Shown in pieces: positions 32,064 to 42,017 of a stretch of 64,000 nt of DNA. This DNA is from Acidobacteriaceae bacterium (GTDB taxonomy: Bacteria; Acidobacteriota; Terriglobia; Terriglobales; Acidobacteriaceae): positions 1 through 64,000 of the forward strand of contig JAOAPC010000001.1 in the NCBI GenBank assembly GCA_025462735.1, written 5' to 3'. Under the pieces are notes generated by a model that saw only the letters and a list, made by a program, of their open reading frames with translations, was not told where the DNA came from and made no database searches. Positions within the stretch are counted from its first letter, which is position 1, and the number at the start of each line of letters is the position of its first letter. The position numbers were made by a program, and so were the translations under genes.

Positions 32064-34469
32064 TTACGGCAAGCTAAACGCCTCGTACACGCTGCCCGAC
32101 GATCCCTTCGGATCCTTCCCGCCTCCCGCCGCCACCACTACGTACTGCTTGCCACCGACCATGTACGTCGCCGGTGTTGCGACACCAGCGTTCAGCAGAG
32201 TCGTTTCCCACAAGAGCTTCCCGTTGCGGGTATCGAAGGCGCGGAATTTTTTGTCATAAACCGTTGCACCAATGAACAACACATCGCCCGCCGTCAGAAT
32301 CGGCCCACCATAATTCTCCGTGCCCGTATTCTTCAATCCCTTTGCCGCCAGCTCCGGATACTCACCCAGCGGAACTTTCCACAAATATTTTCCGCTGTTC
32401 AAATCAATAGCACTCAACGTGCCCCACGGTGGCGTAATCCCAGGATATCCATCCGGATCAATAAAGTCGTTCGATCCCGTAATGCGATATTTCATGGGCG
32501 CGCCTTCGGCCGTGCTCGAATATAGCGCGTCGCGGTCTGGGTCCGCATCGACCGGATTTTTCGCCGTCAGGTAGGCAACCAACCCATTCACATCGTGATC
32601 GTTAAGGCCAGTAAACGCTGGCATTGCGCCCTTGCCTTGCCGGATTCTCGCCTCCACCTGCTCGGCTGAGAGCCGCTGTCCCACTCCCGTCAGAGCGGGA
32701 AATACCGGTGGCTTGCCTTCGCGGTGCTCGCCGTGACAAGTGGCGCACTTATCCTGATAAAGAGTCGCCCCGTGGGTTTGCGGATCTTCGGCGGCGCCGC
32801 CCGTCTTCGCCGCATCCTCCGCCTGGCTGCTGTCCTTCTCCGGTTCGTTCGCGCTGGTTTGCAGAAACTTGATCAGCGCCTGCATGTACTCGCCCTGCAG
32901 GCTGGGAAACGCCGGCATGCGGCCCTTCCCCTGCATGATCGTGTTCTCGATCTGGTCCGCCGAGAGCCGCTTTCCTACGTCAATAAGCGATGGATATGTA
33001 GGCGGCGATCCCGTCCTCTTGTCTCCGTGACAAATAGTGCACTGGTTGTGATATGTCCTCTCGCCCGTGCTGCCGCGCCCCGGCTTGTTTTCGGTGAGCG
33101 CAATCACGCACGCCGCTTCGTTCGCGTTGATATAGATAATGCCGCGCCGCGGATCGACCGCCGGCCCGCCCCACTCCGCCCCGCCCAGAAAGCAGGGAAA
33201 CACGACCGTTTCTTGATCTAAGCCCGTCGGAATGAATTGGCCGCCGCTCAAATATGTACTGAAAGTTTTTTCCGCCCATTCATGCGCCACCGGCGTTCGC
33301 TGCGTGAGCAACTCCTCCGTCAAAACCTGCCGCGTGAACGGCGAGGGCGCCGTCGGCACCGGCTGCGTGGGAGACGTAACTTCACCGGGAATCTGACTCG
33401 CCGGGAAGCTGCGCTCTTCAATAGGAAATAACGGCTTGCCTGTTGCACCGTCGAACAGAAAAAGGTATCCCTGCTTTGTGGTTTGTGCGACCGCATCTAC
33501 CCGTTTCCCTTCGCGTTTCACGGTCACCAGCGCCGGAGGCGCAGGAAAATCGCGGTCCCAAATATCGTGATGCACTCCCTGAAAATGCCAAATGCGCTTG
33601 CCCGTCTCCGCATCCAGTGCCAGCAGCGTGTCAGCAAACAGATCGTCACCCACCCGGTCCGCTCCGTAAAAGTCAAACACGGCTGAGCCTGTGGGCACAT
33701 AAACGATGCCTCGCTTTTCATCGAGAGACATGCCCGCCCAATTGTTCGCTGCGCCCGAATACTTCCACGCATCTTTGGGCCACGTCTCATATCCAAACTC
33801 GCCCGGATGCGGAATGGTGTGGAATCTCCATCGCAGCGCCCCCGTGTGCACGTCGAACGCGCGAATATCCCCGGGCGGGGATGGATGCGTTTCCGGATTG
33901 CGCCCGCCCACGATGATCAAGTCTTTGTAAACAATGCCGGGACTCGTCATCTGCACCGATTGCAACCGGTAATCACCGCGCATGTCCTTCCGCAGATCGA
34001 GGCGTCCCTGCTCGCCAAATTCTGCGATCGGCTTGCCATCTTCCGCATTCAGCGCATAGAGAAAATTCGTGACCGAGGCAAAAATGCGATTCTCTTTTCC
34101 GTCCGTCCAGTAGGCCAGCCCCCGCTCCGGACTGTTTCCCTTAATTCCGGAATCGAACTTCCAGATCAGCTGTCCCGTCGCTGCATCGAGCGCGAGCACC
34201 TTTGACGTTGCGGTATAGGCGTACAGAACGCGGCCGACGATCAGGGGACTGGTCTCCAGCCCGCCCTTTTCGCCGCCATCAAACTTCCACGCCAGCTTGA
34301 GCTTGTGAACGTTTTTCCGATTGATCTGCGAAAGACTTGAGTAATGGTCGGCCGCCGCCTGCCCACCATACACCGGCCAGTCTTGCGTGGCTTGACCTTG
34401 GCAGAACGTAGGAATTGCAATCGACATGGATACAATGCTGAGAAAAAGAAATCTGGATACTAACCCCAT
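32064..34469 (-). CDS. PQQ quinoprotein dehydrogenase with two internal cytochrome c domains
   Basis: 801 residues with a Sec signal (about 1-25). Propeller blades start at residue 30 (WPVYGGQAAADHYSSL, ALDAATGQLIW, AFDVHTGALRW, ALDAETGKRIW). HHDIWDRD (300-307) matches the active-site region of glucose-dehydrogenase-type quinoproteins. Two cytochrome c domains lie at about 465-545 (CTICH at 477-481, axial MPAF) and 560-640 (CATCH at 575-579, axial MPAF), after which the propeller resumes (GTLSAIDLNSGKYLW, AFDTRNGKLLW). The haem domains are therefore inserted inside the propeller, not fused at its end, and would carry electrons straight from PQQ. Substrate (sugar or alcohol) unknown. A different gene from the one at 10045. 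Confidence 0.88.
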   Translation of the reverse strand: MGLVSRFLFLSIVSMSIAIPTFCQGQATQDWPVYGGQAAADHYSSLSQINRKNVHKLKLAWKFDGGEKGGLETSPLIVGRVLYAYTATSKVLALDAATGQLIWKFDSGIKGNSPERGLAYWTDGKENRIFASVTNFLYALNAEDGKPIAEFGEQGRLDLRKDMRGDYRLQSVQMTSPGIVYKDLIIVGGRNPETHPSPPGDIRAFDVHTGALRWRFHTIPHPGEFGYETWPKDAWKYSGAANNWAGMSLDEKRGIVYVPTGSAVFDFYGADRVGDDLFADTLLALDAETGKRIWHFQGVHHDIWDRDFPAPPALVTVKREGKRVDAVAQTTKQGYLFLFDGATGKPLFPIEERSFPASQIPGEVTSPTQPVPTAPSPFTRQVLTEELLTQRTPVAHEWAEKTFSTYLSGGQFIPTGLDQETVVFPCFLGGAEWGGPAVDPRRGIIYINANEAACVIALTENKPGRGSTGERTYHNQCTICHGDKRTGSPPTYPSLIDVGKRLSADQIENTIMQGKGRMPAFPSLQGEYMQALIKFLQTSANEPEKDSSQAEDAAKTGGAAEDPQTHGATLYQDKCATCHGEHREGKPPVFPALTGVGQRLSAEQVEARIRQGKGAMPAFTGLNDHDVNGLVAYLTAKNPVDADPDRDALYSSTAEGAPMKYRITGSNDFIDPDGYPGITPPWGTLSAIDLNSGKYLWKVPLGEYPELAAKGLKNTGTENYGGPILTAGDVLFIGATVYDKKFRAFDTRNGKLLWETTLLNAGVATPATYMVGGKQYVVVAAGGGKDPKGSSGSVYEAFSLP

Positions 34470-34718: not shown

Positions 34719-36869
34719 CTAATCTCCCGCCACTGGCTCCGCCAACTCCGGTGTTTCTCTGTGTGACTCTGTGCCCTCTGTGGTTAAAGGTTTAGCGCCG
34801 TTCGGTTTCCCCAGCGCGCCTAGCGGAATGAATCCATTCTCGGCCACGACTGGTTTTTCCTTCAGCACGACTTCGCGATACAGCGACGCCATACGCGCGT
34901 TGTACGCCGGATCAGCCTTCTGCTTGGCATCGCGCGCCCGCTTCTTCTCTTCACCGGCGTTCTTGGCGATGCCCAGCTTGTCCAGATCGTGCTGCTCTTC
35001 CTGCGTGACAATTCCTTCCCGCAGATAGAGCGAGTGCTCGTTCGACTCCATACCCACGCTCTTGCCACCGGCAAAAATCTCATGCCGCCCATGCTCTTCG
35101 TACCACTTGGTGAGCGTGGCCGTCATGTGCATCTTCTCGATAATGTTCCGCCAGCCTACGCCCGTGTTGTACGCGCAGAATGAAATCTCGCCTTCCTGCG
35201 TGGCATACGGGATGATGCATTGCTCGGTGCGCCGGAAGTCGTAATTGAACAAGTCCTGGAACCACATTCCCGCGATGAACAGGAAGTTCCACCGGTCGTT
35301 ACGCCGCTTCATGACGTCGTCAATGCTGCGGTCCGGCCCAACTTTACCGTAGTCTTTGCCAGTCGCATTGAAGTTCTTATCGAACTTCTTCAGCAGGTCC
35401 ATCAACTTGAAATGTTTCGGCGACTTGAACGGATCGTAATTCTTCATCAAACACAGCGCCATTCCGAAGATGGTCAGGAACTTCCCGCGCGACGCATCGT
35501 TGACCTTGGCAATGTCCTTCGCCAGTTGATCTCCGTGCAGGAACGCCGTCACCGGAACTGCTTCCTTCGTCTCTTTATCGATCATCACCGCCATGCCCGT
35601 CCCGCAATTCGGGTGACAACCGCAACTGAGTTGGCCCCAGTCGTTTTTGAGGTCGTTGACGTGCATCAGGTCGGCCCAATCGCTAAAGGTGGACATGAAG
35701 CTGATCGGGAACCAGTCGCGGGCAGGTTCGCCCAGGCCGGTTTGACCTTTTACGTCGTGGGCCAAATGGGACAGCGTATAACGCTGCGCCATGCGGCGCT
35801 CGTCGGTGATGGCTTCATCGCGTCCGGTGAAGCTGACCGGCTGGAATGAAAGGAAGCCGATCTTCTTAGGATTGTCGAGTGCGAACTGGATGATGCGTCC
35901 GACTTGCTCGTTGTTAATGCCGTTGACGATGGTCACGACCGGGACGATTTCAACGCCGGCGCGATGCAGGTTGTCGATGGCTTTAAGTTTTACGTCGAAC
36001 AGATTGCCGACTTTCCGGTGAGCGTTGGCAGCGTTGCCTATGCCATCGAATTGCAGATATGCATAACGCATTCCAGCTTCAGCGGCTTGTTGTGCGAACT
36101 CGAAGCTCTTGGCGAATTCAATTCCGTTGGTCGCAGCTTGGACCGAGTTGTATCCAACCTTGCGGGCGTAGCGAACTGCGTCCAAGAAATAAGGAGACAG
36201 CGTCGGCTCGCCGCCCGAGAACTGCACGCTCATCTGACGCCGAGGCTTAATTGTGATGGCGTTGTCGAGCATCGTCTTGATTTCTTCCCACGTCAGCTCG
36301 TGCACGAAGCCGACCTGGTTGGCATCCATGAAGCAGGGATCGCACATCATGTTGCAGCGGTTGGTTAGGTCGATGGTGAGCACCGAGCCCCGTCCGTACT
36401 TCACTGTGGACGAGCCGTGCTTGTGCAGCTTTTCGTCGTTGTGGGCGGCGATGTCGCGGCCCGGGAATACGTCTTCAAGGTGCTTGGAAAATTCGGTATC
36501 GACGGACATCAAGTCCTGGAAGCGGCCATGCTTCGGGCACTCTTTGACCATCCAGATCTTGCCGTCTTCCTCGATGAAGGTGGCTTTGATCTCGCCGACC
36601 TTTTCGTTCATCAGCACTTCATAAGGAAGGTGGCCGTCGAGAATCTGCTGACGGATTTCGGGCACGCACTTAGGGCAGAGAGAATCGGTGGCGCGGGGCC
36701 AGCCGAGCGGCGGCTTGGACTTCTGGTAAGACTTGAGCAGCGGCTTGTCTGACCATTTTGGCGTGGGCGACGGGCTCGGCTTAATACGGTTCAGACGATC
36801 GAATACGAGCCACGCTCCTCTCGCGCCAAGGGTGACTGCCTTCTCTACATATTTAATAGGCTTGTGCAT
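34719..36869 (-). CDS. Radical SAM protein resembling tetraether lipid synthase (Tes)
   Basis: 716 residues, soluble. An N-terminal rubredoxin-like metal site (C65xxC68 in LCPKC and CPKHG at 111) precedes the SAM-cluster motif C172-x3-C176-x2-C179 (TNRCNMMCDPC) and FSGGEPTLSP. Further Cys motifs follow: SCGCHPNC (416-422), C551 and C565. This N-terminal CPxC...CPxHG plus CX3CX2C plus CGCHPNC layout is that of MJ0619/Tes, the archaeal enzyme that joins lipid tails into membrane-spanning tetraethers; bacterial homologues are linked to branched GDGTs. A membrane-lipid coupling role is therefore proposed but not shown. The last 22 residues (from LTTEGTESHRET) come from a CTCTGTG intergenic repeat. 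A terminator follows; no operon partner. Confidence 0.75.
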   Translation of the reverse strand: MHKPIKYVEKAVTLGARGAWLVFDRLNRIKPSPSPTPKWSDKPLLKSYQKSKPPLGWPRATDSLCPKCVPEIRQQILDGHLPYEVLMNEKVGEIKATFIEEDGKIWMVKECPKHGRFQDLMSVDTEFSKHLEDVFPGRDIAAHNDEKLHKHGSSTVKYGRGSVLTIDLTNRCNMMCDPCFMDANQVGFVHELTWEEIKTMLDNAITIKPRRQMSVQFSGGEPTLSPYFLDAVRYARKVGYNSVQAATNGIEFAKSFEFAQQAAEAGMRYAYLQFDGIGNAANAHRKVGNLFDVKLKAIDNLHRAGVEIVPVVTIVNGINNEQVGRIIQFALDNPKKIGFLSFQPVSFTGRDEAITDERRMAQRYTLSHLAHDVKGQTGLGEPARDWFPISFMSTFSDWADLMHVNDLKNDWGQLSCGCHPNCGTGMAVMIDKETKEAVPVTAFLHGDQLAKDIAKVNDASRGKFLTIFGMALCLMKNYDPFKSPKHFKLMDLLKKFDKNFNATGKDYGKVGPDRSIDDVMKRRNDRWNFLFIAGMWFQDLFNYDFRRTEQCIIPYATQEGEISFCAYNTGVGWRNIIEKMHMTATLTKWYEEHGRHEIFAGGKSVGMESNEHSLYLREGIVTQEEQHDLDKLGIAKNAGEEKKRARDAKQKADPAYNARMASLYREVVLKEKPVVAENGFIPLGALGKPNGAKPLTTEGTESHRETPELAEPVAGD

Positions 36870-41381: not shown

Positions 41382-42017
41382 GATTCCCGAAACAAAACAA
41401 TCACGAAGCATTGCAACCGGGAAGGGCATGAGTTTCACTCGTGCCGATATAGGCTAACGATGACGCGGCTTCCAGCCGCTGAGTACGCTCGTGAAGCCTA
41501 CTCGTCTGATGTCTCCGCCGGGAACGTATTTCGTAACATTCTCGACTTGGCAACGGCGCAGACTTTTCGTTGTGGAACCGTATGCGCGTCTCTTCTTGAA
41601 AACAATCTATGCCTACCGTCGCGAAGGAAATTTCCAGCTGCATGCTTTCGTCCTAATGCCCGAACATATTCATCTGCTGCTTACACCGGCAGAAGACGTC
41701 ACACTCGAACGCTCGGTGCAGCTCATCAAGGGCGGCTACTCGCATGCGTTCGGAGTTGACTTCGGTAAGCACAAGGAAGTTTGGCAGAGAGGCTTCACAG
41801 ATCACCGGATTCGAGATCGTGAAGATTTCGAAAAACATCGGCAATACATTCACCACAATCCCGTGGCGCGCAGGCTCGTGAATCGGGCAGCCGAATATCG
41901 CTACTGCTCGGCACATCCAGGATTCAAGCTGGACCAGCCGCCCTCAGCGGCTAAAGCCGCAGTTGCATAAGCGAGAATCGGCACGACTAGAAGTCGTGCC
42001 CTTCCCTTGCTTGCCCT
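41382..42017 (+). mobile_element. REPtron: REP-associated tyrosine transposase with flanking REPs
   Basis: The transposase gene is flanked left by GCATGAGTTTCACTCGTGCC and CGGCTTCCAGCCGCT palindromes, and right by CAGCGGCTAAAGCCGC and GCACGACTAGAAGTCGTGCC palindromes. These are the same short hairpins found singly in the gap at 42.7-42.9 kb. The layout is that of bacterial REP elements mobilised by RAYT enzymes. Confidence 0.75.
41491..41970 (+). CDS. REP-associated tyrosine transposase (RAYT, IS200-like HUH)
   Basis: 159 residues from GTG at 41491. Y1 transposase features: FVTFSTWQRRRLF at the N-terminus, the HUH metal site MPEHIHLLLTP, and the C-terminal catalytic Tyr in RQYIHHNPVARRL, with EYRYCSAHPG following. 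A single-domain Y1 HUH enzyme that nicks single-stranded REP hairpins. Length is normal for RAYTs. The last residues (SAAKAAVA) are encoded in the right-hand REP. All catalytic residues are present, so it could be active. Confidence 0.9.
   Translation: MKPTRLMSPPGTYFVTFSTWQRRRLFVVEPYARLFLKTIYAYRREGNFQLHAFVLMPEHIHLLLTPAEDVTLERSVQLIKGGYSHAFGVDFGKHKEVWQRGFTDHRIRDREDFEKHRQYIHHNPVARRLVNRAAEYRYCSAHPGFKLDQPPSAAKAAVA

Follow-up and report, generated by a model that had tools for sequence, protein, structure and literature searches.

Does the Tes-family gene at this locus make branched tetraether lipids, or does its product join lipid tails to another end? Past temperature and pH are reconstructed from branched GDGTs (brGDGTs), and the makers of these lipids and the enzymes involved are poorly constrained. 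A brGDGT role for bacterial Tes homologues was already proposed in 2022 by Zeng et al., who reported 456 of them, including acidobacterial ones (PMC8941075), and Halamka et al. proposed it for the homologues of Solibacter (PMC10087280). In a 2025 survey, 17 of 97 acidobacterial MAGs from the Black Sea carried Tes homologues, whose function was noted as unconfirmed. The stretch of 64,000 nucleotides from an Acidobacteriaceae genome analyzed here (the window) carries a gene that the first-pass annotation, reading the cysteine motifs, took for a possible bacterial tetraether-lipid synthase.

The gene and its homology to MJ0619/Tes

The gene is a 716-codon open reading frame (Table 1), and the frames antisense to it are most likely chance products. 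Its start agrees with that of its relatives (MxKxIK) in an alignment. Pfam matches were found to Radical_SAM and to the HMPTM zinc ribbon, which corresponds to the N-terminal domain of MJ0619. The highest-ranking NCBIfam model was the tetraether lipid synthase Tes (NF045702) with an E-value of 2.6e-94, and the best match among solved structures in a sequence search was MJ0619 (7TOL, E 3.4e-64). The Tes score of 316.6 bits stays below the curated 450-bit cut-off of this equivalog model, so that the profile comparison proposed in the first-pass annotation did not assign the protein to Tes, though other acidobacterial proteins exceed the same cut-off. The second-ranked model, the TrsS radical SAM (seleno)protein (NF045646), was rejected as an identity since its 211.5 bits lie far under the cut-off of 490 and also below the Tes score.

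Structure comparison gave the same relative. VIA-align superposed the predicted model on MJ0619 (7TOM) with a Z of 26.5 over 465 aligned residues at 29% identity, every non-Tes row scoring below 15, and MJ0619 also ranked first in Foldseek (E 1.2e-27). The pLDDT was below 50 at residues 172-190 and in much of 537-585; with such low confidence near the metal sites, metal geometry was not taken from the model. The N-terminal helix was not predicted to be transmembrane, though it is hydrophobic.

Table 1. Features of the Tes-family gene and its product in the window
Feature	Position	Strand	Remarks
CDS, Tes-family radical SAM protein, class without N-terminal [4Fe-4S] cluster	34719..36869	minus	716 aa, ATG start, TAG stop
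N-terminal helix, residues 4-28	36786..36860	minus	pLDDT blocks 86-96; absent from MJ0619
Rubredoxin-type site C65-X2-C68-X42-C111-X2-H114	36528..36677	minus	spacer 42 versus 20 in MJ0619
Segment in place of N-terminal [4Fe-4S] site, residues 141-161, AAHNDEKLHKHGSSTVKYGRG	36387..36449	minus	zero Cys; H149, H151 and G152 invariant in the window class (42-protein alignment)
Radical SAM motif C172-X3-C176-X2-C179, then F180	36333..36356	minus	motif comparison
CGCHPNC, residues 416-422	35604..35624	minus	C422 aligned with MJ0619 C338
Putative C-terminal cluster segment: M535, C551, Y555, C565	35175..35267	minus	alignment with MJ0619 M439, C455, Y459, C470
C-terminal extension, residues 600-716	34722..35072	minus	poor conservation, poor structure prediction

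A gene for an 801-aa PQQ-type dehydrogenase with two cytochrome c domains between propeller parts (32064-34469) lies 249 nt downstream on the same strand. Elsewhere in the window an open reading frame at 41491-41970 resembles, by eye, a REP-associated (RAYT-type) transposase, and the stretch around it (41-44 kb) shows short peptide-like segments that recur in several reading frames and may be REP-like DNA repeats. The neighbors were discarded as functional evidence: the PQQ dehydrogenase, metallophosphoesterase, MarR and pilT-like genes do not recur in relatives, and no neighbor of any family was found conserved across the relatives' loci. A search for plasmid-borne relatives of the protein returned weak partial matches only.

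Metal sites and catalytic residues

MJ0619, the archaeal tetraether synthase that couples two lipid tails across the membrane, has four metal sites: a rubredoxin-type site C9-X2-C12-X20-C33-X2-H36, an N-terminal [4Fe-4S] cluster on C73, C77 and C80 (CX3CX2C) plus a His, the radical SAM CX3CX2C cluster, and a C-terminal [4Fe-4S] cluster with the labile Met439 (Lloyd et al., PMC9433317). A [4Fe-4S] cluster of this enzyme carries an S-C intermediate, and M439 and Y459 are conserved across 1000 archaeal homologues (PMC9433317).

The window protein contains the motifs C65-P-K-C68, C111-P-K-H114-G, C172-X3-C176-X2-C179 and C416-G-C-H-P-N-C422, which are not chance occurrences because their cysteines are kept in 42 relatives and the Tes model and MJ0619 match the protein so strongly. 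Three of the four MJ0619 sites (the first, third and fourth) are retained. The rubredoxin-type ligands C65, C68, C111 and H114 are invariant in the 42 relatives, and the radical SAM CX3CX2C is found in every class member except those with a gap or masking at this position. At the fourth site C422, M535, C551, Y555 and C565 are aligned with their MJ0619 counterparts and conserved. The CGCHPNC motif aligns with SSHQHC of MJ0619, so that only the last cysteine is common to both; C422 is a putative ligand of the C-terminal cluster, a role that conservation across both classes described below suggests for the individual C-terminal cysteines. C416 and C418 are additional invariant cysteines of the window class. 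The alignment also shows the SAM-loop residues F180, Q343, S346 and R350 retained, and none of the residues linked to coupling in MJ0619 has been lost.

The second site is lacking. Its ligand segment reads HKHGSSTVKYGRG and is free of cysteine, and no cysteine occurs at this position in any window-class member that has the region among 42 aligned proteins. The cysteine layout that had been equated with that of MJ0619 thus agrees at the rubredoxin-type, radical SAM and C-terminal sites but not at C73/C77/C80, and in CGCHPNC it agrees at the last cysteine only. The first-pass annotation had further anticipated four metal sites with no ligand missing, which is contradicted throughout the window clade by the loss of the N-terminal site. 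The missing cluster is perhaps an electron relay. Its absence implies another electron route or fewer cofactors, and raises the question of how coupling by an enzyme of the Tes type can proceed in its absence.

Two Tes-family classes in Acidobacteriota

A phylum sample of 297 genomes was scored with the Tes model. Matches above the cut-off occurred in 34 genomes, the acidobacterial proteins of this kind scoring 470-620 bits, and in many other genomes the match was of the window type, scoring about 310-350 bits and lying in a longer open frame. The motif CPxxCGxCxxH, which comprises all four N-cluster ligands, was kept in 20 of 20 acidobacterial proteins above the cut-off. Because the N-terminal site is kept in these and absent from the window clade (42 compared), the phylum has two Tes-family classes. 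In a maximum-likelihood tree the 42 window-class proteins were placed on one side of a 100/100 branch, apart from MJ0619 and the above-cut-off proteins; with the tree unrooted and its branches long, we infer that the window class lost the N-cluster, rather than that it was gained elsewhere. The homologues of Koribacter and Solibacter (42% and 40% to MA_1486) would belong to the above-cut-off class.

Nearly all of the 80 nearest loci listed from named genomes are acidobacterial. Among the matches listed, Candidatus Sulfotelmatobacter and other subdivision 1 MAGs are closest (82-86% identity), and Edaphobacter, Granulicella, Acidipila, Acidicapsa and Bryobacterales follow at about 72-80%. At 97% completeness, the window's genome has one Tes-family gene, the next radical SAM match scoring 55 bits. 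Each of the 31 genomes sampled from its family gave a Tes-family match at window-class score or higher, and three of these carry both classes close together, in tandem about 245 nt apart in one (G265) and with one intervening gene in the others (G073 and G121). Some acidobacteria lack the class: one family with many species (f23) is almost entirely without a Tes-family gene. Acidicapsa dinghuensis has a window-class gene and, elsewhere in its genome, a second Tes-family match that is more distant and scores 256 bits (G300 contig C9:128038-129459).

The classes also differ in their association with ether genes. Of 19 genomes in the phylum sample with a Ger-like DUF2229 protein of 1,000-1,075 aa, 15 also have an above-cut-off Tes protein (Fisher p 8e-13, with kinship ignored and the lists transcribed by hand). 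In one genome (G203) a Ger/PlsA-like gene with the two-domain architecture lies about 250 nt downstream of the Tes gene on the same strand. This locus (L156:5181-10183, contig C20) comprises the above-cut-off Tes gene, the 1032-aa Ger/PlsA-like gene and a 475-aa gene, and is a candidate tetraether cassette. In view of the co-occurrence and this adjacency, ether-linked coupling is read as mainly the role of the above-cut-off class.

The present analysis adds the division into two classes, the loss of the cluster and the strain-level lipid link described below. No description of the two acidobacterial classes or of the lost cluster was found in the literature, in a search that left supplements and most subscription journals outside its scope, so that priority is uncertain. 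The split warns against treating all Tes homologues as brGDGT genes, as metagenome surveys may do.

Product of the window class and comparison with known systems

Iso-diabolic acid has been reported from acidobacterial subdivisions 1, 3, 4 and 6 (PMC13274423). Edaphobacter modestus DSM 18101 contains 30.4% of it, with glycerol ethers undetected (PMC11354219), and an earlier study reported ethers in Edaphobacter under other conditions (as noted in PMC11354219). One of the relatives' loci (L103) is from this very strain. Its genome encodes a single Tes-family protein, which belongs to the window class (313.8 bits), and a search of it for DUF2229 (Ger/PlsA-type) genes found none. E. aggregans contains 26.4% iso-diabolic acid (PMC11354219) and its single Tes homologue shows 32% identity (PMC8941075), which by this measure is the level of the window class. 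The E. modestus strain match is correlative, there being other radical SAM proteins in these genomes; it is the strongest evidence and suggests tail coupling by the window class without ether formation. Since a Tes-family match occurs in all 31 genomes of the window's family and DUF2229 in just 8 of them, the window class is independent of ether formation. Iso tails end as isoprenoid (phytanyl) tails do (Zeng et al., PMC8941075), and with such an end on the iso-C15 tail the chemistry fits coupling by the window class.

The window protein, a member of a distinct Tes-family class in Acidobacteriota, probably couples lipid tails and yields ester-bound iso-diabolic acid. Homology, fold, retained catalytic residues, the lost auxiliary cluster, clade identity and the single Tes-family gene are observed; reaction, substrate and product would be as follows, with the mechanism modeled on that of MJ0619. 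SAM would be cleaved by the reduced radical-SAM [4Fe-4S] cluster, and the 5'-deoxyadenosyl radical would attack an iso-C15 acyl chain in a membrane phospholipid, abstracting hydrogen from its terminal methyl group. The resulting carbon radical would be stored on one sulfur atom within the C-terminal [4Fe-4S] cluster until a second iso-C15 chain is coupled to it. The product would be the membrane-spanning lipid with ester-bound iso-diabolic acid (13,16-dimethyl octacosanedioic acid), the 13,16-dimethyl C28 skeleton arising because two iso-C15 tails are joined at their ends. The retained cluster ligands and SAM-loop residues allow such a mechanism. Later conversion of ester to ether toward brGDGT could occur where a Ger/PlsA-type reductase is encoded. 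This may apply to the window's genome, where contig C3 encodes a DUF2229 protein of 1204 aa that also has two BcrAD_BadFG domains, so that ether formation or conversion to brGDGT is possible there.

Several points count against this assignment. In the literature found, activity has been shown for no bacterial Tes homologue; Solibacter usitatus has two Tes homologues and iso-diabolic acid was undetected (PMC10087280); and Mss, the Thermotoga coupling enzyme whose function has been tested, is likewise reported from Acidobacteria (PMC13274423), so that an Mss homologue may be present elsewhere in these genomes. The absent neighbor conservation and the missing N-terminal cluster weigh in the same direction.

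That the protein is a strict tetraether synthase acting on ether lipids to give brGDGT, in line with the role proposed in the first-pass annotation and, for bacterial Tes homologues, by Zeng et al., appears unlikely. E. aggregans makes brGDGT with a single Tes homologue at window-class identity (PMC8941075), the 1204-aa protein has the two-activation-domain architecture of validated Ger proteins, which have two BcrAD_BadFG domains (PMC13274423), and Tes tolerates both ester and ether lipids (PMC13274423). Yet E. modestus has iso-diabolic acid with neither detectable ethers nor a DUF2229 gene, DUF2229 is confined to a minority of the window's family, and ether-linked coupling tracks better with the above-cut-off class, both in the Ger-like carriers and at the G203 locus. 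What stands of the first-pass proposal is a Tes/MJ0619 relative by sequence and fold, from an acidobacterium and credible as a tail coupler; strict Tes identity does not, and the best-matched lipid is ester-bound iso-diabolic acid.

It is rather improbable that the protein modifies a lipid or other hydrophobic molecule without coupling while an Mss-type radical SAM enzyme couples, for example the product of the radical SAM/SPASM gene (P0002) beside the Ger-like gene on contig C3. Thermotoga Mss is the bacterial coupling enzyme confirmed by expression (PMC11604127), P0002 accompanies a Ger-like gene in three genomes (G000, G233 and G007), and the window class lacks the auxiliary cluster. However, P0002 is absent from E. 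modestus, Granulicella and Acidipila, where generic radical-SAM matches only (E 1e-11 to 1e-14) were found, and therefore does not explain the iso-diabolic acid of E. modestus; moreover, the window protein keeps every coupling-linked residue of MJ0619.

A P0002-type gene, a gene for a ~596-aa protein without a match in a Pfam search and one for a ~1200-aa Ger-like protein recur together at L127:1018-9080 (on contig C3 of G000), L158:3572-10468 and L159:5208-12043, and three other loci (L142, L143 and L145) have the latter two without P0002. In a Bryobacteraceae MAG (L094:9995-13425) a P0002-type gene lies 60 nt downstream of a window-class gene in the same orientation; this linkage was not found at 20 further P0002 loci and was set aside as an isolated case.

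With the window protein taken as a coupling enzyme for ester lipids, its gene becomes a single-gene candidate for iso-diabolic acid, which often makes up at least a quarter of acidobacterial fatty acids. More tentatively, Acidobacteriota may use two Tes-family enzymes in parallel, a three-site one (this gene) that couples iso-fatty acids in ester linkage to iso-diabolic acid and a four-site Tes that acts with a Ger-like ester reductase for tetraethers. If so, the lipids of an acidobacterium, whether membrane-spanning esters, brGDGTs or both, would be predictable from its gene content.

Archaeal Tes/GDGT-MAS (MJ0619, PDB 7TOL/7TOM, NF045702) shares its fold with the window protein over residues 57-596 of the latter, together with the rubredoxin-type site, the radical SAM cluster, the C-terminal ligands, the labile Met and the conserved Tyr. 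The window protein differs by the lack of N-terminal [4Fe-4S] ligands, an extra N-terminal helix, a C-terminal extension and a rubredoxin spacer that is 22 residues longer. The acidobacterial homologues above the Tes cut-off come from the same phylum, belong to the same protein family and are about 35% identical to the window class, and are distinguished by four N-cluster ligands, another tree position and co-occurrence with Ger-like proteins. Mss of Thermotoga maritima (Sahonero-Canavesi et al. 2022) has a similar proposed product type, tail-coupled (iso)diabolic acids, and its radical SAM architecture has been likened to Tes (PMC13274423). A control scan of the T. maritima genome gave no Tes-model match at E 1e-20, which argues against close kinship, so that Mss appears to lie outside the Tes family. 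The products would differ as well, since Thermotoga diabolic acid arises mainly by omega-1/omega-1 coupling (PMC8788747) whereas iso-diabolic acid corresponds to coupling at the chain ends.
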